Assembly (NCBI GenBank): GCA_029556545.1
Contig: JAKQEQ010000071.1
Span: 1-13,311 of the forward strand
Direction of reading: 5' to 3'
Source: Candidatus Hydrogenedentota bacterium
GTDB taxonomy: Bacteria > Hydrogenedentota > Hydrogenedentia > Hydrogenedentales > JAGMZX01
Length of the DNA: 13,311 nucleotides
The translations under genes and the position numbers were made by a program. The first letter of the stretch is position 1, and every line of letters starts with the position of its first letter. Positions 724-13,218 of this stretch are shown piece by piece. The notes under the pieces were generated by a model. That model worked only from the letters and a program-made list of their open reading frames with translations. It did not search any database and had not been told where the DNA came from.

Positions 724-1050
724 TCATGCCACGCGTATCTGCTTTCCCTCGCGACGGGCGATTTCTATGACGGCGTTAGATGTGTCCTCATGCCATTGTT
801 GCAGGCCGCAGGCAATCGGCTCGATGCGGCTGTCGGTCCGGGCCGCCATGTACCATAGTACGCCCGTGTCCTCGCGATGCCTCGGTCCGTCAAACTGCGG
901 CGATACGACGAGCAGATCGATGTCGCTCCATTCATGCGTGTCGCCCAAGGCTTGCGAACCGAAAAGAACGACAAAGGATACGGGAATACCCGCGCCCTCG
1001 ACGGCGCGTATGTACCGCTGGACGCTGTCTATAACTTCCCGTTCAGCCAA
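724..1050 (-). CDS. Minimal nucleotidyltransferase (MNT), partner of the HEPN protein
   Basis: This 108-residue protein carries the signature of minimal nucleotidyltransferases: G31-S32 followed after ten residues by D43-x-D45 (FGSQALGD then WSDIDLLVV), with E77 as the likely third metal ligand. Such proteins transfer a nucleotide, AMP in the characterised MntA, from ATP to a partner HEPN protein and act as the antitoxin. The start codon is TTG at 1050. It is supported by a strong GGAGG (1065-1061) ten bases upstream, inside the HEPN gene; the nearest ATG (1058) is in another frame. The gene overlaps the 3' end of the HEPN gene by 22 bases, implying coupled translation with toxin first. Family assignment is secure; the antitoxin role is inferred from pairing. 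Confidence 0.85.
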   Translation of the reverse strand: MAEREVIDSVQRYIRAVEGAGIPVSFVVLFGSQALGDTHEWSDIDLLVVSPQFDGPRHREDTGVLWYMAARTDSRIEPIACGLQQWHEDTSNAVIEIARREGKQIRVA

Positions 1051-1409
1051 GTGAGCATTTCCTCCACACGCCGTAGGATTCCTCTGGCTTGCTTGAGTTC
1101 CGGTACGGCCCCAAGATACTCGCCGTAACGCCCCTCCAAGTTGAAGTCGTTTACCTGCCCCAGAAACTTGATTTCGTCTTCGGCCAGGTCCAGGCCGGCC
1201 AATTCACTCAAACGAACGAGATTATGGATGCGCGGCGCAAGATCGCCCGTCTGCTTGCAGACATGGGCCTTCAACATCTTCTCTAGCGTCAAGTGCGCCC
1301 AGAATAGACCTTGGCGAACATGTTTCTTCGCGATGAGAACACGGGAAACCTCCAACTCTTCCAGACTGGAGTCGCGCCAATGTCGTATCTGGGTTTCGAT
1401 ATTGATCAT
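1029..1409 (-). CDS. HEPN-domain protein, probable toxin of a HEPN/MNT module
   Basis: A 126-residue, all-helical HEPN protein (PF05168-like). It has an N-terminal helix with paired Trp and Arg, the conserved RQGLFWAHLTLEKMLKAHV helix (R32 to H39, E43, K44, K47), THN-type 'RIHNLVRL' at 60-67, and 'NLEGRY' at 90-95 where the family often has ARYPD. HEPN proteins are frequently metal-independent RNases. The usual C-terminal RX4-6H catalytic motif is not obvious here, but R32-x6-H39 fits that spacing, so nuclease activity cannot be claimed. I chose ATG at 1409 (MINIETQ) over the open extension to 1445 because the -10 box of a strong promoter lies just upstream, at 1422-1417. The MNT gene follows with overlap. 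Confidence 0.82.
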   Translation of the reverse strand: MINIETQIRHWRDSSLEELEVSRVLIAKKHVRQGLFWAHLTLEKMLKAHVCKQTGDLAPRIHNLVRLSELAGLDLAEDEIKFLGQVNDFNLEGRYGEYLGAVPELKQARGILRRVEEMLTWLNGKL

Positions 1410-1416
1410 CGCATGG

Positions 1417-1445
1417 ATTGTATCCCCCCTCAAGAAGCGATTCAA
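1417..1445 (-). promoter_or_regulatory. Sigma70-type promoter of the HEPN/MNT operon
   Basis: Minus strand: -35 TTGAAT (1445-1440), a 17-base spacer, -10 TACAAT (1422-1417, five of six consensus). The expected start of transcription, 6-8 bases past the -10, falls at about 1409-1411, that is, on or next to the HEPN ATG at 1409. The mRNA would therefore be leaderless, and the G-rich stretch at 1424-1430 that looks like a ribosome site would lie in the promoter spacer. Confidence 0.6.
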
Positions 1446-1511: not shown

Positions 1512-1589
1512 CCCCGCCGTGACTGGCGAGTTGACGTGGAAGGGACCACGGGGAAGCGGCGGGGCGCAATTGCCGTTCGCCTGGGCGCC
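1512..1589 (+). promoter_or_regulatory. ZTP (pfl-motif) riboswitch upstream of gcvT
   Basis: All core elements of the ZTP/ZMP riboswitch are visible. P1 is CCCCGCCG (1512-1519) paired with CGGCGGGG (1557-1564), a perfect eight base pairs. The conserved TGACTGGCG follows P1. P2 is CGTGG (1535-1539) with CCACG (1546-1550), then the conserved GGGGAAG. The 3' hairpin is GCCGTTCGCCTGGGC (1572-1586), with GCC pairing GGC. Its loop CGCC (1578-1581) can form the pseudoknot with GGCG (1525-1528). This RNA class binds the purine-biosynthesis intermediate ZMP (AICAR) or ZTP, which accumulates when 10-formyl-tetrahydrofolate is short, and normally turns on one-carbon and purine genes. Here it precedes gcvT by 65 bases. 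Motif recognition was by eye from the known consensus. Confidence 0.9.
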
Positions 1590-1650
1590 GGACCTTTGTT
1601 GCGAAATGGGCCGGAAAGAGTGCGGGGGAAGCGTGTGCTTCCCGAGGGCG
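1587..1650 (+). promoter_or_regulatory. Probable riboswitch expression platform and gcvT ribosome site
   Basis: Downstream of the aptamer there are two potential hairpins: CCGGACC with GGGCCGG (one mismatch, about 1588-1614), and a perfect seven-pair stem GGGAAGC (1626-1632)/GCTTCCC (1637-1643) with a four-base loop. The second ends directly against the GAGGG ribosome site (1644-1648), five to six bases before the gcvT ATG at 1655. There is no U-run, so control of translation or of local RNA structure seems more likely than intrinsic termination. How the aptamer is coupled to these stems cannot be decided by eye. Confidence 0.45.
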
Positions 1651-1654
1651 TATC

Positions 1655-2728
1655 ATGCGTCGAACACCTTTGTGCGATGAATACGCGCGTCTGGGCGCGA
1701 AGGTCGTGGATTTCCACGGTTGGGCGCTGCCGGTGCAGTTCGGCGGGATTATCGAGGAGCATCTGCACACGCGGTCACAGGCGGGGCTCTTCGACTGCTC
1801 CCACATGTCCGAGTTCCTGCTTCAAGGCCGGGACGCCATCGCCGCGCTGGACCGGCTGGTCTTCTCGGATTTCGTCGGCCTGAAGTCGGGGCGCTGTCGT
1901 TATAGCGCGCTGCTGAACGACGCGGGGGGCGTCGTGGACGATTGCGTCGCCATGCGGCTCGATGAGGAGACGCTGTATCTCGTGACGAACGCCGGGCCGG
2001 TGGGTGCGGTCGAGGCGCTGTTCGCGCGACACGGGGTGACGGCGGCGAATGTCTCGGACACGACGGCGAAGATCGACGTGCAGGGGCCACGGTCGCGGGA
2101 CGTGCTGCTTGCCGTGGGGTTGGAGGCGGCGGGGCCGCTGCCTTATTGGAGCGCACGGCGTATGGGGTGGCGGGAGCATGAGATTCTGGTGGCGCGGGCG
2201 GGTTACACGGGCGAACTAGGCTACGAACTGTATGTCCCGAACGAAGTGGCGGTTGACCTGTGGCGCGCGTTCCTCGAACACCCGGAGACGGCGCCGTGCG
2301 GCCTGGGCGCGCGCGATACGCTCCGCTTGGAGGTAGGGTATCCGCTTTACGGAGAGGACGCGTCGGAGGAGAAGACGCCCCTCGAATGCGGGATGGAACG
2401 TTTTATCGTGTGGGAAAAAGATTTTAATGGGAAGACGGCCATCGAGGCGCAGCGGGCGCGCGGCGATTATTCGCGGCTTACGGCCATCGTCTCGGCGGAC
2501 CGGCGCTCGCCCCGGCGCGGTTTCGAGGTCAGGTGCGGCGCGGAGGCAGTCGGCGTTGTCACGAGCGGGACCTACGGCCCGAGCGTCGGCCGGGGCGTGG
2601 GGTTTGCCTTGCTTGCGCCGGCTTATGCGCATGCGGGCGTGGCGTTGACGGCGGGACCACGGGAAATGCCGATTACTACGGCGGAAATCCCCATCTATAA
2701 GGAGGGGACATGCCGGGTGAAGGTGTAG
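1655..2728 (+). CDS. gcvT: Glycine cleavage system T-protein (aminomethyltransferase)
   Basis: A 357-residue T-protein of normal length. It takes the aminomethyl group from lipoyl-GcvH, passes the methylene to tetrahydrofolate to make 5,10-methylene-THF, and releases ammonia. The N-terminal folate-binding domain shows FHGWALPVQFGGI near residue 20, the AGLFDCSHMSE motif (43-53) and LNDAGGVVDDC (87-97); its Asp pair includes the position equivalent to the catalytic Asp of E. coli GcvT. The GLGARDTLRLEVGYPLYGED motif lies mid-protein, and the C-terminal barrel ends with YGPSVGRGVGFALL and an IYKEG close. ATG at 1655 is preceded by GAGGG. It is the first gene after the ZTP riboswitch and is separated from gcvH by a 515-base repeat-filled gap, so the downstream genes may depend on readthrough or on their own promoter. 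Confidence 0.96.
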   Translation: MRRTPLCDEYARLGAKVVDFHGWALPVQFGGIIEEHLHTRSQAGLFDCSHMSEFLLQGRDAIAALDRLVFSDFVGLKSGRCRYSALLNDAGGVVDDCVAMRLDEETLYLVTNAGPVGAVEALFARHGVTAANVSDTTAKIDVQGPRSRDVLLAVGLEAAGPLPYWSARRMGWREHEILVARAGYTGELGYELYVPNEVAVDLWRAFLEHPETAPCGLGARDTLRLEVGYPLYGEDASEEKTPLECGMERFIVWEKDFNGKTAIEAQRARGDYSRLTAIVSADRRSPRRGFEVRCGAEAVGVVTSGTYGPSVGRGVGFALLAPAYAHAGVALTAGPREMPITTAEIPIYKEGTCRVKV

Positions 2729-2916: not shown

Positions 2917-3194
2917 GTCACGCGCGGCGCGTGACTTCGGTGCGGCAAGCCGGAGACCGGCCACAGCAGTGTGGGGGCCCCGAAGGGGCGAAAACATGAC
3001 AGCCCAGGGCAACGCCCTGGGGATAGGGACAGACCCGTATGCGAAGCCCTGAAAGGGCGGGACAAGGCGATGCAAGATTCGCAACTGCGAGGGATATCGG
3101 CTGGATGTTGCGCCCTTTCAGGGCTTCTTGTTGGGTGTTGCCCGTATTCCCAGGGCGTTGCCCTGGGCTGCCATCTTACGGGCCTTTGGCCCGT
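2917..3194. repeat. Hairpin cluster with mirror symmetry (REPIN/MITE-like) between gcvT and gcvH
   Basis: Nine short stem-loops follow one another: GTCACGCG/CGCGTGAC (2917-2935), GCCGG/CCGGC (2949-2961), CACA/TGTG (2962-2973), GCCCC/GGGGC (2977-2989), CCCAGGGC/GCCCTGGG (3003-3021), GCCCT/AGGGC (3046-3058), GCCCT/AGGGC (3112-3124), CCCAGGGC/GCCCTGGG (3149-3167) and ACGGGCC/GGCCCGT (3178-3194). Most have a three-base loop. The last four or five are arranged head-to-head about a centre near 3085: loop GAA becomes TTC and loop AAC becomes GTT, so 3003-3058 is mirrored by 3112-3167. This resembles REP doublets mobilised in trans by REP-associated tyrosine transposases. No transposase gene is present here. 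Confidence 0.8.
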
Positions 3195-3243: not shown

Positions 3244-3630
3244 ATGGAGCCGAAGAGACTGCGTTATACCAAGGATCATGAGTGGGTCGGGCGCGACGGC
3301 GACACCTATGTCGTCGGGATCACGGACTATGCGCAGGAACAGTTGGGCGACGTGACATATGTCGAGTTGCCGGAGGTCGGGCGCAGGGTCGCCGCGGAGG
3401 AGGAGACGGCGGTGGTGGAGTCGGTGAAGGCGGCGAGCGACGTGTTCGCGCCGGTGGCGGGCACGGTGGCGTCGGTAAACGAGGCGCTCGAAACGCAGCC
3501 GGAACTGGTGAACCAGGACCCCTATGGCGAAGGGTGGTTCTTCAAATTGCGGGACGTGAAGGCGGCGGACGTGGAGGGCCTGATGGACGCGACGGATTAT
3601 AACGCCTTCCTGGCTACGCTGGAGGAGTAG
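3244..3630 (+). CDS. gcvH: Glycine cleavage system H-protein (lipoyl carrier)
   Basis: A 128-residue H-protein of full family length. It shuttles the aminomethyl group from the P-protein to the T-protein on a lipoyl-lysine arm. The start YTKDHEWV (8-15) is characteristic. [19 protein letters not shown] (25-43) and G46 precede the lipoylation site, V57-V58-E59-S60-V61-K62 with K62 as the modified lysine. The C-terminal [15 protein letters not shown] motif is present. ATG at 3244 is chosen with GAGG at about 3231-3235. The stop codon TAG is directly followed by the gcvPA ATG, so the two are cotranslated. The only plausible source of its lipoyl group in this window is the ligase-family gene at 6368. 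Confidence 0.96.
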
Positions 3631-4917
3631 ATGAGCTGGGTCCCGCATACGGACGCCGACCGCGCGGCGATGCTGGCGGTTATCGGCGTCGATTCGACGG
3701 ACGCGCTGTTCGAGGCCATCCCGCCGGAGGCGCGGCTGCAATCCTGGAACGTGCCGCCCGGTCTTTCGGAGATGCGGGTGCGTGCGTTGCTCGGGGAACT
3801 TGCGGCGCGCAACGACACGGGCAGGGTGAGCTTCCTGGGCGGGGGCTATTACGACCACTACATCCCGGCGGCGGTGGACGCGCTCCAGGGCCGCAGCGAG
3901 TTCTATACGGCGTACACGCCCTACCAGCCGGAGTGTTCGCAGGGCACGCTCCAGGCCATCTACGAATATCAATCGGTGATCTGCCGACTGACGGACATGG
4001 ACTTCGCGAACGCTTCGCTCTATGACGGCGGCACGGCGGTCTTCGAGGCGGCGACGATGGCGGCGCGGGTGACGGGCCGCCGCCGCGTGGTGTGTCATCC
4101 GTCGCTGAGCCCGACGTGGCGGGCGATGCTCGATACGCACACGGCCCATCTCGATTTCGAGGTAATCGACGGCGACGATCCGGCGGGCGCGGCCTGCGTC
4201 ATCGCGCAAAACCCGTCGTTCCTCGGCGACGTAGTGGATTTTGAGCCGCTGGCCGCGCGCTGCCGCGAGGCGGGCGCGCTGTTTGTGCTGTCCGTCTATC
4301 CGGTCTCGCTCGGGCTGATCAAGACGCCCGGCGAAATGGGCGCGGACATCGCGGTGGCGGAAGGGCAGAGCCTCGGGCTGCCGCTGGGCTTCGGCGGGCC
4401 GTACCTGGGCATTCTCGCGACGCGCAAGGCGCACGTGCGCAAGATGCCGGGGCGCATTGCGGGCGTGACGGGGGACGCGCAGGGCCGGCGCGGCTTCGTG
4501 CTCACGCTTCAGGCGCGGGAGCAGCATATCCGCCGCGCGAAGGCCACGTCGAATATCTGCACGAACCAGGCATTGTGTGCGCTGCGTGCGCTGATCCACT
4601 TGTGCCTGCTTGGAAAAGAAGGATTGCGGGAGGTCGCCGTCGCGTGCCATTCGAAGGCCGAGTACCTCAAGAGCAAACTCGCCTTCGCGCGCGTGTTGAA
4701 CGAACACCCGACGTTCAACGAATTCGTGGTGCGGCTGCCGCGCGACGCGCGGGAAGTCGTGGCGCGATTGCGCGGGGTGGGCTATCACGCGGGGCTGCCG
4801 CTGGCGTGCGTCGGGCGCGGCGAAGCGAACGACCTGCTGATCGCCGTGACGGAGAAGCGCACGCGCGCGGAGTTGGACGCCTTCGTGGCGGCGTTGGAGG
4901 AGGTCGCATGCAGTTGA
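3631..4917 (+). CDS. gcvPA: Glycine dehydrogenase (decarboxylating) subunit 1
   Basis: A 428-residue N-terminal half of the split P-protein. With GcvPB it forms the PLP enzyme that decarboxylates glycine and loads the methylamine onto lipoyl-GcvH. Typical features are WVPHT at the N-terminus, FLGGGYYDHYIPAAVD (about 67-82), TAYTPYQPECSQGTLQAIYE, the SLYDGGTA segment, GQSLGLPLGFGGPYLG in the middle, and RRAKATSNICTNQALCAL in the last third. The protein ends within a few residues of the expected family length. The ATG directly abuts the gcvH stop (TAGATG), with GGAGGAG inside gcvH as ribosome site. Its TGA (4915-4917) lies beyond the gcvPB start, a 10-base overlap, so the two subunits should be made in equal amounts. 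Confidence 0.95.
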   Translation: MSWVPHTDADRAAMLAVIGVDSTDALFEAIPPEARLQSWNVPPGLSEMRVRALLGELAARNDTGRVSFLGGGYYDHYIPAAVDALQGRSEFYTAYTPYQPECSQGTLQAIYEYQSVICRLTDMDFANASLYDGGTAVFEAATMAARVTGRRRVVCHPSLSPTWRAMLDTHTAHLDFEVIDGDDPAGAACVIAQNPSFLGDVVDFEPLAARCREAGALFVLSVYPVSLGLIKTPGEMGADIAVAEGQSLGLPLGFGGPYLGILATRKAHVRKMPGRIAGVTGDAQGRRGFVLTLQAREQHIRRAKATSNICTNQALCALRALIHLCLLGKEGLREVAVACHSKAEYLKSKLAFARVLNEHPTFNEFVVRLPRDAREVVARLRGVGYHAGLPLACVGRGEANDLLIAVTEKRTRAELDAFVAALEEVACS

Positions 4918-6347
4918 TCTTTGAGAAATCGGTGCCGGGCCGGCGCGCGGTCCGGTTTGACGCGCTCGATGTGCCGGAGGCGGGGCTGCCCGAGACGCTG
5001 CGCCGCCGCGAGGCCGCCGCGCTGCCGGAGGCGGCGGAGATCGACGTGGTGCGGCATTTCACGCATCTATCGAAGCGGAATTTCGGCATCGACTCGCATT
5101 TCTATCCGCTGGGCTCGTGCACGATGAAATACAACCCGAAAGTGGCCGAAGTCGTGGCCGCGCTGCCGGGCTTCGCGCAGTTGCACCCGCGGCTGGCGAA
5201 CGCGCCGGAATACGAGGACGCGGTGCAGGGGGCATATGCGCTGATATACGGACTCGAAGCGCTGCTGGCGGAAATCGGCGGGATGCGCGCGGCGTCGATC
5301 CAGCCGATTGCGGGCGCGCACGGCGAGTTGACGGGCGCGCTGCTCATGGCCGCCTACCACCGCGACCGGGGCAATGCGCACAAGGACACGGTGCTCGTGC
5401 CGGACTCGGCGCATGGGACGAATCCGGCGAGCGCGGTGATTGCGGGCTTCCACGTGGTCGAGGTCCCGTCGTGCGCGAAGGGGTTCGTCGATTTCGAGGC
5501 GATGAAGGCGGCGCTCGGGGACCATGTGGCGGGCGTGATGCTGACGTGTCCGAACACGCATGGAATGTTCGAGCCGGAGGTGCGCGAGATCGCCCGGATC
5601 GCGCACGAGAAGGATGCGTTGCTGTACTATGACGGCGCGAACCTCAACGCGATTGTCGGCCAGTGCCGCCCGGGCGACCTCGGCTTCGACGTCATGCACT
5701 TCAACCTGCACAAGACCTTCGCGACGCCCCACGGCGGCGGCGGGCCGGGATCGGGGCCGGTGGGCGTGGGCGAGCGGCTGCTGCCGTACCTGCCGGGGCC
5801 GCGGGTCGTGAAGCGGGAGGACCGCTACACCCTTGATACGCCGGAGAAATCCATCGGGCGCGTGGCGGCGTTCTTCGGGAACTTCCTCATCGCCGTGCGC
5901 GCGTATGCGTACCTGCGCTATTACGGCGGCGACGGACTGCGGGGGATGAGCCGCGACGCGGTCCTTAACGCGAATTACGTGCAGGCGCGCCTCGAAAAGG
6001 CGTACCAGCCCGCGTTCGACGGACGGTGCATGCACGAGTGCGTCTTTACCGGCGCGCGCCAGGCGGAGAAGGGCGTCCGCGCGATGGACATCGCGAAGGC
6101 GTTGCTTGACCGGGGCTTCCACGCGCCGACGGTGTATTTCCCGTTGACCGTCAAAGAATGCCTCATGATCGAGCCGACCGAGACCGAGTCGAAGGAGACG
6201 CTCGACGCTTTCTGCGACGCGATGCTGGAGATCGCGTCGCTCGTGGACCGCGACCCGGATGCGCTGCACGCCGCGCCCGTGACCACGCCGGTGGGGCGTC
6301 TGGACGAGGTGAAGGCGGCGAAGGACCTCGATTGCGCGTGCCGGTGA
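4908..6347 (+). CDS. gcvPB: Glycine dehydrogenase (decarboxylating) subunit 2
   Basis: A 479-residue PLP-bearing half of the split P-protein. The N-terminal part has HFTHLSKRNFGIDSHFYPLG and SCTMKYNPK, the hallmark of this subunit. PDSAHGTNPASA and YYDGANLNAIVG follow. The cofactor lysine is K269 in NLHKTFATPHGGGGPGSGP. The C-terminus carries VYFPLTVKECLMIEPTE. ATG at 4908 is inside the end of gcvPA and is preceded by GGAGG, so translation is coupled; a longer open frame upstream of it is only a shadow of gcvPA. A split P-protein (PA plus PB) is found in Firmicutes, archaea and many deep bacterial lineages, in contrast to the single-chain GcvP of Proteobacteria and mitochondria. Confidence 0.96.
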   Translation: MQLIFEKSVPGRRAVRFDALDVPEAGLPETLRRREAAALPEAAEIDVVRHFTHLSKRNFGIDSHFYPLGSCTMKYNPKVAEVVAALPGFAQLHPRLANAPEYEDAVQGAYALIYGLEALLAEIGGMRAASIQPIAGAHGELTGALLMAAYHRDRGNAHKDTVLVPDSAHGTNPASAVIAGFHVVEVPSCAKGFVDFEAMKAALGDHVAGVMLTCPNTHGMFEPEVREIARIAHEKDALLYYDGANLNAIVGQCRPGDLGFDVMHFNLHKTFATPHGGGGPGSGPVGVGERLLPYLPGPRVVKREDRYTLDTPEKSIGRVAAFFGNFLIAVRAYAYLRYYGGDGLRGMSRDAVLNANYVQARLEKAYQPAFDGRCMHECVFTGARQAEKGVRAMDIAKALLDRGFHAPTVYFPLTVKECLMIEPTETESKETLDAFCDAMLEIASLVDRDPDALHAAPVTTPVGRLDEVKAAKDLDCACR

Positions 6348-6367
6348 GGCGGGTACGATACGGTGTC

Positions 6368-7099
6368 ATGCGGGTTGTTGATTACAGTTTTCGTTTCCCG
6401 GCGCTGAACCTTGCGTTGGATGAGGCGTTGTTGAACGGCGTCGAGCGGGGGGGCGCGCCGGAGACGCTGCGCTTTTGGGAAAGCCCGACGCATTTTGTCG
6501 TGGTGGGGACGGCGCAGGCGCTGCGGGAAGAGGTGCATGAGGACCATTGCCGGGCGGACGGGGTGCCGGTGCTGCGGCGGTGCAGCGCGGGGGGCTGCGT
6601 GCTGCAGGGGCCGGGCTGCCTGAACTTCGCACTGGCGCTGCGCACGGAGTCGCGCCCGGAGATCGCGTCGCTGCACGCGTCGTATGACTATATCCTTGGC
6701 GCGTTGATCCGGGCGTTTGCGCGGCGGGGGCTGCACCTTTCGGCGGCGGGTGTGTCGGACCTAGTCCAGGGCGACCGGAAGGTGTCGGGTAACGCGCAGC
6801 GCCGTCGGCGTCGCGCGATCCTGCATCACGGCACGCTCTTGTACCGCGTGGAGGCGGGGCGCATGGACCGCTACTTGAAGGAGCCGTCGAGGCGTCCGGC
6901 GTATCGCGGCGCGCGGACGCATGGGCAATTCCTGGCGGCGTTGCCGCTGCCGCCCGCCGCGTTGCGGGCGGTGGTGTGCGAGGCGTTTGGCGCGACGGTC
7001 GGGGACGCGGGCGCGGAACTCCTGGATTCCGAGCGGGATGAATGCGAGGAGTTGGCTCGGTCCAAGTACAGGACGGACGCTTGGACCTACCGGCGTTGA
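6368..7099 (+). CDS. Lipoate-protein ligase / octanoyltransferase family protein (LplA/LipM type)
   Basis: A 243-residue single-domain protein of the biotin/lipoate ligase fold. It has N14-L-A-L-D-E-A-L (family NxAxDE), the R70-R71-x-S-A-G-G-C-V-L-Q segment ending in N86 (family RRxSGGGxVxHxxGNxNxxL), and G135-D-R-K138-V-S-G-N-A-Q followed by HHGTLL. K138 matches the lysine that attacks the acyl group in this family. The position usually occupied by a third Gly in RRxxGGG is Cys77, and an Arg5 run (145-149) follows the catalytic loop. It could ligate free lipoate or transfer octanoate; sequence alone does not separate these. Position 20 bases after gcvPB suggests GcvH as substrate. ATG at 6368 gives the natural N-terminus, but its ribosome site is weak: GAGG lies about 18 bases upstream. 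Confidence 0.85.
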   Translation: MRVVDYSFRFPALNLALDEALLNGVERGGAPETLRFWESPTHFVVVGTAQALREEVHEDHCRADGVPVLRRCSAGGCVLQGPGCLNFALALRTESRPEIASLHASYDYILGALIRAFARRGLHLSAAGVSDLVQGDRKVSGNAQRRRRRAILHHGTLLYRVEAGRMDRYLKEPSRRPAYRGARTHGQFLAALPLPPAALRAVVCEAFGATVGDAGAELLDSERDECEELARSKYRTDAWTYRR

Positions 7100-10234: not shown

Positions 10235-10237
10235 GGA

Positions 10238-10307
10238 ATGCGGAATGCGGAATGCGGAATATGGAATGCGGAATGCGGAATATGGAATGCGGAATGCGGA
10301 ATGCGGG
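10238..10307. repeat. Second ATGCGGA heptamer array, 10 units
   Basis: Ten 7-bp units begin three bases after the GerMN stop codon: ATGCGGA three times, ATATGGA, ATGCGGA twice, ATATGGA, ATGCGGA twice, and a final ATGCGGG. The ATATGGA variant is the same one that closes the array after gcvT, while the TTGCGGA unit of that array is absent here. Like the first, it starts immediately after a stop codon. Confidence 0.93.
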
Positions 10308-11300: not shown

Positions 11301-12143
11301 TCAGAAGGTCGCGCGGTCATCATTGAGGTCCTCATCGGTCTTGTTGGATTCGGCGATGTTGTCCGGGGGTCCGGGTTCGTCTTCCCATATGCGATTGAGG
11401 AGGAAGTTGTGGGGAAGGGGCACGTAGCGGCCGCGCTCGCTCTGCCACTGCTTGCTCCGCTTCCAAGCCTTCACGGCGTCGAGGATGGTGACGGCGGTAT
11501 CGGTGTCGGGGTCGAGTTTGTTCCATGCCTGGGCGGCCTTGGTCTGTTGTTGCTTTCTGGGGTATGCCTTCCAGAAGTCCTCGAAGCTTATCGAAGAGGA
11601 ATTATTAGAAGAAGAGCCAGAAGAAGAATCAGAACATCCCACACCAGCACCAAACGCACGCGTGCTCGCGTGCGTGCGCGTATGGGTGTGTGTGCGTGTT
11701 GCACTCTCCGTTTTCAATTCGGGGAAGTAGTGAGCGGCAGCGCGCCGGATTTTGGGACTCTGTTGTTCGACATGGTCGAGAAATCGGCGAATTTGGTCGC
11801 TGTACACGGGGCACTCGGGGAGAGGTTGGAGTTGGGAGTGCGCGAGCGTGACTTGTTTCGCGGTTACGATCGGATTGTGCTTAAGGTAGTTGGGAACGGC
11901 GATCACGCCGTCGGCGAGGTCCGACGCGATGAGACCCAGCGCATCGAGCCTGGAGATCATGGGGAAGACGTCGTCGCGTGAGACGTTGAGGGTGGCGGCA
12001 AACTCGTCGGCGAAAGCGTAGACGGTCCCGATACGCGTGAGGAAGGGGTGCGTGAGTACATAAAGAAAAGCCAACTTCTCGTCATGCGCTAATGGGTGGA
12101 ACTTGGCGTTCCTCCAGATGGAGGGGTTGACTGCTCGATACAT
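11301..12143 (-). CDS. Phage-type replication/helix-turn-helix protein
   Basis: A 280-residue protein. Residues about 8-90 form a winged-helix unit (NAKFHPLAHDEKLAFLYVLT, DEFAATLNVSRDDVFPMISR, LDALGLI, IAVPNYLKHNP) of the kind found in phage replisome organiser and DnaD/O-like proteins. Residues 147-184 are a low-complexity linker rich in Thr-His and then Ser/Asn. Residues 186-260 carry the C-terminal block FEDFWKAYPRKQQQTKAAQA, WNKLDP, AVKAWKRSKQW, GRYVPLPHNFLLNRIWEDE, a well-known tail of phage replication proteins. I chose ATG at 12143 because GGAG lies ten bases upstream. An alternative ATG at 12251 overlaps the upstream HNH stop as ATGA and would add a 36-residue Arg/Pro-rich leader. The family match is from memory; helicase loading at a phage origin is inferred. 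Confidence 0.72.
   Translation of the reverse strand: MYRAVNPSIWRNAKFHPLAHDEKLAFLYVLTHPFLTRIGTVYAFADEFAATLNVSRDDVFPMISRLDALGLIASDLADGVIAVPNYLKHNPIVTAKQVTLAHSQLQPLPECPVYSDQIRRFLDHVEQQSPKIRRAAAHYFPELKTESATRTHTHTRTHASTRAFGAGVGCSDSSSGSSSNNSSSISFEDFWKAYPRKQQQTKAAQAWNKLDPDTDTAVTILDAVKAWKRSKQWQSERGRYVPLPHNFLLNRIWEDEPGPPDNIAESNKTDEDLNDDRATF
11654..11699. other. Alternating purine-pyrimidine tract inside the linker coding region
   Basis: Three alternating blocks, 11654-11665, 11667-11684 and about 11686-11699, are built of CG, CA and TG steps. Together they give about 44 bases with strong Z-DNA potential. On the minus strand they encode the Thr-His/Arg-rich part of the linker in the replication-type protein (about residues 149-164). 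The low-complexity peptide may simply be a by-product of this simple sequence. Confidence 0.6.
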
Positions 12144-12247
12144 ATCCGGAAGGCTCCATGTTTGTGATTGTCGAGGTTGTTGTTGATGTGAGCGTGTTAT
12201 GCGTGGCGGAGGAGCGCGGTTCGGGGTCGCGCGCGGGTCGCGGCGCC

Positions 12248-13084
12248 TCATGCGTCGTCTTCCCTGCCGGAGAGGTCGGTGGTGATGGGCTGTGGCGCGC
12301 GGGCTTCCAGCAGGTCGATCAGATGCCACAGCCGCCACTGGTCCGCTTCGTCAAAGAACCGCGGCGCCTCCTGGCCCGGACCCGCCTCGGCCACGCTGCG
12401 GCCTTTGTACCGGACCTGGAGGGTGCGGCTCGGACAGGGCGTGTTGTCGATGGTCCGGGGCCTTTCGGCGCGGTTAAGCACGACGTGGTAGCGCGCAAGT
12501 GCCCAGATCGCGACGCCATCGCAGGGATTGTTTTTACGTTTTTCGAAGTTTTCGTATAGCGGCAGGTGCCTTCGCGCCGCCGCCTCGCATTCGTCACGGC
12601 TGAACGGGTGCCGCGCGGCCAAGGTCTCGCCAGGGCGCTCGGGAAAGTTGCAAGAGAGCGCGGGCGCGCCGACGGCGCGCTTGGCCTCGTCATAAGCGCG
12701 GGCGGCAAGGTCGGGACGTGAGAAACTGGCGCGCGCGGGGCGGCGTCGCTTGAAGGTCATCTGGAACTTGCGGCGGTCACGCGATACGCCCAGAGCGACG
12801 GCGGAGGCGGCGCATCGGTTGAGCGCGTTAATTCTGTGGGTGACGACGCGGAGGTTTCTTCTGCGGTTGTCGAGGGCATCATGGTTGATGTGGTCGACTT
12901 GCGCGTAGGGCGGGGGGTTGAGGATGAGGCTATGGACCGAGACGGTGCGCCCTTTCTTCCTTACAAAGGGGAAGGGGCGCGACCCCGGGTGGTAGTAGAC
13001 AGTCATGCCCTCGAACAGGTGCAGGTCCTTGTCATCCACCAGGATGACCGCGTCGGGATGACCTTTCGTGCGAATACTTGCCAT
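12248..13084 (-). CDS. HNH endonuclease with AP2-like DNA-binding domain
   Basis: A 278-residue protein. The HNH part has VSVHSLIL (H51), then QVDHINHDALDNRRRNLRVV with D64-H65, N73 and N77, the standard HNH_3 layout seen in phage and homing endonucleases. Next comes an AP2-like domain (about 98-148): LGVSRDRRKFQMTF, LAARAYDEAKRAVG and a closing CNFPE, matching the 'GVyw - W/F - EAArAYDeAA - NFP' pattern. About 130 C-terminal residues (RHPFSRDECEAAARRHLPLY onward) are not recognised. ATG at 13084 is chosen over the open extension to 13132 because GAGGA lies about nine bases upstream. Such proteins are typically selfish or phage-borne nicking or homing enzymes. The following replication-type gene, with possible ATGA overlap, supports a phage or mobile origin. 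Confidence 0.8.
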   Translation of the reverse strand: MASIRTKGHPDAVILVDDKDLHLFEGMTVYYHPGSRPFPFVRKKGRTVSVHSLILNPPPYAQVDHINHDALDNRRRNLRVVTHRINALNRCAASAVALGVSRDRRKFQMTFKRRRPARASFSRPDLAARAYDEAKRAVGAPALSCNFPERPGETLAARHPFSRDECEAAARRHLPLYENFEKRKNNPCDGVAIWALARYHVVLNRAERPRTIDNTPCPSRTLQVRYKGRSVAEAGPGQEAPRFFDEADQWRLWHLIDLLEARAPQPITTDLSGREDDA

Positions 13085-13218
13085 ATGATAATTCCTCGTT
13101 TCCCCCCACCCCCCTATGGAGCAGCGTTGCATTGCGAGTCGCGTGGCGGGTGCATCAAAATCCGCACATCATGTCCACTGCGGGAACCGCGCGGTTTGCG
13201 CGATTTGGCGAAGGGCAC
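13085..13218. other. Upstream region of the HNH gene
   Basis: No gene is seen. On the minus strand it contains the HNH ribosome site (GAGGA, 13098-13094) and, further out, two G6 runs separated by one T (about 13101-13113). A perfect 12-bp palindrome AACCGCGCGGTT lies at 13185-13196 and could be an operator or simply a stem. No convincing -35/-10 pair was found. Confidence 0.4.

Follow-up and report, generated by a model that had tools for sequence, protein, structure and literature searches.

The glycine cleavage system is a textbook target of glycine riboswitches, and the locus analysed here raises the question of which signal its glycine cleavage genes answer to. Within the window, that is, the whole stretch of 13,311 nucleotides, we found a complete ZTP aptamer immediately ahead of gcvT, an arrangement kept across the phylum Hydrogenedentota, and no glycine riboswitch. 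The arrangement is best explained by a ZMP/ZTP (pfl) riboswitch that occupies the gcvT 5' leader and most likely acts as an ON switch, a reading to which we assign a probability of about 0.85. A shortage of 10-formyl-THF would let AICAR (ZMP) and the corresponding triphosphate, ZTP, accumulate and stabilise the aptamer with its P1, P2 and P3 helices and GGCG/CGCC pseudoknot, and expression of gcvT would then rise. The glycine cleavage system would convert glycine into 5,10-methylene-THF, from which FolD would make 10-formyl-THF. A ZTP riboswitch acting on gcvT was also the reading of the original prediction, and it is supported as far as computation on the sequence allows.

A complete ZMP/ZTP aptamer ahead of gcvT

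To identify structured RNAs in the window we searched it against Rfam using cmscan. The only match was the ZMP-ZTP aptamer RF01750 at 1509-1593 on the forward strand (62.4 bits, E = 2.1e-8), spanning model positions 1-86 of the full model of 86. The gathering score of RF01750 is 39 bits, so that the aptamer lies 23 bits above it, and the covariance-model check suggested with the original prediction thus returned a match well above threshold. The whole 6.1-Mb source genome contains a single RF01750 match, namely this gcvT-leader copy. The prediction had placed the riboswitch at 1512-1655; the aptamer accounts for this span as far as 1593, and the remaining part (1594-1654) is leader sequence up to the gcvT ATG at 1655, which puts the 3' end of the aptamer 61 nt upstream of the start codon.

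All the parts named in the prediction were found, each on the forward strand. In the covariance alignment and in the alignment of homologues, P1 pairs 1512-1520 with 1556-1564 through eight Watson-Crick pairs and U1520-G1556. The aptamer parts GACTGGCG (1521-1528) and GGGGAAGC (1550-1557) are present, flanking a P2 hairpin (1535-1550) in which CGTGG at 1535-1539 pairs with CCACG at 1546-1550 and the core is almost invariant in the alignment. P3 (1571-1587, strands 1571-1574/1584-1587) carries the conserved ligand/pseudoknot loop GCCG-NN-CGCCTGGGC, with CGCCTGGGC at 1578-1586. The predicted pseudoknot strands, GGCG at 1525-1528 and CGCC at 1578-1581, are both there and complementary. The class-defining nucleotides of RF01750 are all intact; judged by them, the window aptamer belongs to a known riboswitch class as an ordinary and complete representative, and their conservation suggests that it binds ZMP/ZTP.

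The structure was then assessed in an alignment of 43 gcvT-linked aptamers from Hydrogenedentota. The standard pairs form in 91.3% of cells, compared with 41-48% when partners are slid, and the covariation score was 0.204 vs 0.105 in shuffles, none of the 500 shuffles scoring as high. The expected conservation of pairing in homologues was borne out by compensatory, both-side changes in 10 pairs, nine of which belong to P1 and the inner helix (9/12 pairs there). P2 and most of P3 are nearly invariant among these 43 aptamers. Equally, GGCG and CGCC are complementary and each invariant in 43/43, an invariance that neither proves nor disproves their pairing. What supports the pseudoknot, along with most of P2 and of P3, is therefore identity with the class and not covariation.

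A near-copy of the P3/pseudoknot strand, (C/T)CTGGGCGC, is spelled by codons close to the gcvT start (1690-1698). It is present in the source genome and its sister only and is probably a codon coincidence (Arg-Leu-Gly-Ala).

Covariance searches with the glycine riboswitch model (RF00504) gave no match in the window or the source genome, as originally claimed. None of 60 Hydrogenedentota genomes had a match over the cut-off, one match being just below it. Glycine riboswitches were observed upstream of two gcvT loci from other phyla (L082, L086), and three Clostridia-type gcvT loci (L084, L085, L087) carried T-box leaders upstream, at a distance of about 1.3-1.8 kb from gcvT.

Two further regions of the window were annotated. 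Divergent from the riboswitch leader, a nucleotidyltransferase-domain gene (724-1050, reverse strand) adjoins a HEPN-domain gene (1029-1445, reverse strand), the two resembling an MNT/HEPN toxin-antitoxin pair. Towards the contig end, two reverse-strand frames (11301-12338 and 12248-13132) have no NCBIfam matches, one of them containing an HNH endonuclease domain, and this segment may be mobile or phage-like.

Distribution of the aptamer in Hydrogenedentota

The source genome belongs to Candidatus Hydrogenedentota, as do the named relatives of GcvT in genome contigs. At least one RF01750 match above the cut-off was detected in 59 of 68 Hydrogenedentota genomes, and in 37 of the 38 with completeness of 90% or more and contamination of 5% or less. 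For 60 genomes, which together hold 64 RF01750 places (one of them a contig-end duplicate), the surroundings were fetched and the first downstream gene was classified. The aptamer lies 31-138 nt upstream of gcvT in 49/60 genomes, so the survey of relatives proposed with the prediction found the arrangement to be widely kept; gcvT-linked copies occur in 8/11 families. The rest of the gcvT leader varies in length and sequence while the aptamer stays. None of 25 gcvT loci from other phyla had a ZTP aptamer before gcvT, in a small sample that includes loci with little upstream DNA, and the single ZTP aptamer found in 14 genomes of other phyla was upstream of an apparent glyA.

A second target emerged from the survey. 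In 14/60 genomes a ZTP aptamer sits 48-123 nt upstream of a stand-alone, 372-residue AICAR transformylase (loci L061, L062, L064, L050, L056, L059 and others), and 11/60 genomes have both gcvT-linked and AICAR transformylase-linked aptamers. PurH is split in the phylum, its Pfam model being matched by two separate genes at positions 1-62 and 63-311. Upstream of the source genome's own AICAR transformylase, no weak ZTP aptamer was found. In a few AICAR transformylase leaders a GC hairpin and U-run follow P3 and resemble an intrinsic terminator; by a simple rule, a hairpin and U-run just after P3 were detected in 3/13. The two kinds of target may therefore use different kinds of expression platform. 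The proposed ligand logic is internally consistent because these other copies precede the gene for the ZMP-consuming enzyme, AICAR transformylase.

The gcvT leader and the direction of switching

Directly 3' of P3, the leader can form a possible hairpin P4 (CCGG...CCGG, 1588-1614), identified by eye in two leaders; the sister genome could form it too, and a two-sequence fold gave it partial support from those two sequences. A strong hairpin, GGGAAGC-GTGT-GCTTCCC (1626-1643), is conserved in the sister genome, has no U-tract after it and abuts the probable Shine-Dalgarno sequence of gcvT, GAGG at 1644-1647. The terminator scan found no terminator-like site in the gcvT leader of the window, and an intrinsic terminator was rejected as its platform. 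Because the leader has no terminator, we infer that control is exerted at translation, which is the natural guess. The two-sequence fold of window and sister did not yield a convincing conserved switch.

To examine access to the ribosome site we used a two-state fold model, in which leaders were folded either unconstrained or with the aptamer (the ligand-bound fold) forced, and the cost of opening the Shine-Dalgarno site was determined in both states. One locus, L004, was left out of this model, of the own-partner permutation and of one run of the Shine-Dalgarno-P3 pairing analysis described below. In the gcvT leaders as a group, the site becomes easier to open when the aptamer is forced (mean drop in cost 1.0 vs 0.2 kcal/mol in shuffled leaders, p = 0.012). 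Release of the ribosome site was seen in several relatives but not in the window leader, where forcing the aptamer makes opening 2.7 kcal/mol more costly (-2.7 on the same scale; -0.8 for the sister). The ON direction proposed here thus comes from the class in general and from the gcvT leaders as a group, not from the leader of the window.

We also asked how well the Shine-Dalgarno region pairs with the P3/pseudoknot strand. The predicted pairing is stronger for gcvT than for gcvH/gcvP starts (-14.0 vs -10.5 kcal/mol, p = 6e-7), the gcvT start regions being richer in G+C than those of gcvH/gcvP. With composition controlled the group gave p = 0.09, and own-partner permutation gave 301/5000 (579/5000 when each genus was represented by a single sequence). 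Base composition explains a good part of the phylum-wide complementarity. As the group effect fades once composition is controlled, this pairing was rejected as a general mechanism and kept for individual loci only, in family f10 and in a few further cases. In f10 the ribosome site, AGGCGAAC or AGGCGACC, is complementary to the NNCGCCU strand of the aptamer, and both variable positions, GU or UU in the aptamer, match in five leaders.

These results bear on two alternatives. An OFF switch, in which the ligand would lower expression of gcvT and so spare glycine for purine synthesis during folate shortage, draws on the fold model of the window leader, where the Shine-Dalgarno site is harder to open in the bound state, and on the fact that glycine is itself a purine precursor; one tandem ZTP pair, before moeA, is moreover a predicted OFF switch (PMC9481103). 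We nevertheless regard it as improbable, given that the gcvT leaders as a group lean ON in the fold model, that the f10 ribosome site is complementary to the P3/pseudoknot strand in a way that fits ON, and that the remaining copies in the phylum lie ahead of AICAR transformylase, a target for which an ON switch makes sense. Less probable still, to the point of being hardly credible, is that the source genome retains a leader that still has the shape of the aptamer but has lost the ability to switch. Folding and the terminator scan found no clear expression platform in the window leader, as a relic would have it, yet the class-defining nucleotides are all intact and the family keeps compensatory changes in P1 that a relic would lose. 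An ON riboswitch acting on gcvT is thus the reading carried forward below.

Extent of control, folate supply and known systems

The glycine cleavage genes predicted to lie downstream were confirmed, all above curated NCBIfam cut-offs and all on the forward strand. gcvT (1655-2728), encoding aminomethyltransferase, matched TIGR00528 with 296.6 bits (cut-off 235.85) and Pfam GCV_T; it is followed by gcvH (3244-3630; TIGR00527, 172.2 bits), gcvPA (3631-4917; NF001696, 562.2 bits) and gcvPB (4911-6347; NF003346, 699.2 bits). The start of gcvPB is approximate, its homology beginning inside an open frame that starts at 4575 and covering residues 112-586 of that frame. A lipoate-protein-ligase-like gene comes next on the same strand (6347-7099, start approximate), with a good Pfam match (LplA-B_cat, 130.2 bits) and a score below the NCBIfam equivalog cut-off; its product plausibly lipoylates GcvH.

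How far control extends beyond gcvT is uncertain because of the long gap before gcvH, 515 nt in the source genome, which contains a repeat array. The 7-bp unit GCGGAAT/GCGGATT forms tandem arrays at 2731-2875, within this gap (145 bp), and at 10235-10306; a 21-bp probe of the unit matched the source genome 27 times but neither the sister nor either of two further genomes. It is possible, though rather doubtful, that the aptamer controls gcvT alone, in which case only the THF-using T-protein would be adjusted and gcvH-gcvPA-gcvPB would be transcribed on their own. Such a restriction would be compatible with an ON switch, and it is favoured by the gap with its 145-bp array and one terminator-like hairpin (3112-3124), as well as by the fact that translational control directly affects the first gene only. 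Against it, the terminator scan gave fewer sites than shuffles do on average, and the gap is only 113 nt in the sister genome. Across the phylum, gcvH follows gcvT wherever it is within reach, usually after 16-185 nt, nearly all other loci falling in this range. Gaps this short in relatives suggest that, in the phylum, the genes form a single operon.

The folate metabolism of these bacteria gives the proposed control a plausible purpose. A gene search found no fhs (FTHFS) in the source genome or its sister, and the source genome has folD and glyA; methylene-THF is therefore the expected route to 10-formyl-THF, which makes it plausible that ZTP sensing should lead to glycine cleavage. Only 6 of the 30 Hydrogenedentota genomes examined have fhs and 24/30 are without it. 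The ZTP-gcvT arrangement is present in 21/24 genomes without fhs and in 3/6 with it, a trend in the expected direction and too small to lean on. That most sequenced members of the phylum keep the aptamer before gcvT suggests that they draw one-carbon units from glycine breakdown in times of folate shortage. We would give even odds to a broader proposal: that throughout the phylum the gcv operon answers to ZTP and not to glycine, since most genomes are without fhs and have to obtain 10-formyl-THF by way of methylene-THF made from glycine or serine, and that in f10 the invariant pseudoknot/P3 strand itself acts as an anti-Shine-Dalgarno, the ligand freeing the ribosome site.

If so, this catabolic operon can equally be wired to secure the folate supply, with the ZTP alarmone in place of glycine. 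This leads to a testable prediction for hardly studied bacteria, namely induction by trimethoprim and no direct response to glycine, and enlarges the ZTP regulon of Hydrogenedentota, which would then comprise both gcvT and AICAR transformylase. Among the papers searched, none linked Hydrogenedentota with riboswitches. Kim et al. 2015 is said to describe the ZTP class and its genes, and the ZTP-gcvT association may already be tabulated there. The class itself is well known; what would be new is that gcvT, an uncommon target for it, is kept across a phylum in which most of the genomes examined are without fhs.

Several known systems can be set beside this locus. ZTP riboswitches are described as raising expression as their ligand rises (PMC2864571, PMC7266159). 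The aptamer described here shares with the class the P1, P2 and P3 helices, the GGCG and CGCC pseudoknot strands, the CGCCTGGGC loop and placement within a one-carbon gene's 5' leader, but differs in its target, gcvT, and in that no intrinsic terminator was found in the window leader. The glycine riboswitch (gcvT motif, RF00504) usually targets the same operon, with another fold and another ligand. The tandem ZTP/glycine riboswitches of Bacillus and Oceanobacillus likewise tie ZTP sensing to glycine one-carbon supply, although they consist of two aptamers before a serine-biosynthesis gene (PMC9481103), whereas here a single ZTP aptamer precedes gcvT. In Cupriavidus, a pfl-glyA-lacZ fusion was induced by trimethoprim (PMC10882993); there too, ZTP sensing drives the loading of THF from serine or glycine. 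A pfl riboswitch has been stated to lie upstream of gcvH in Cupriavidus metallidurans (2026, PMC13192273); this is uncertain because a single pfl, before glyA, was found in the same strain (2024, PMC10882993). Neither of these two cases is a gcvT leader, the position that the ZTP aptamer occupies here.
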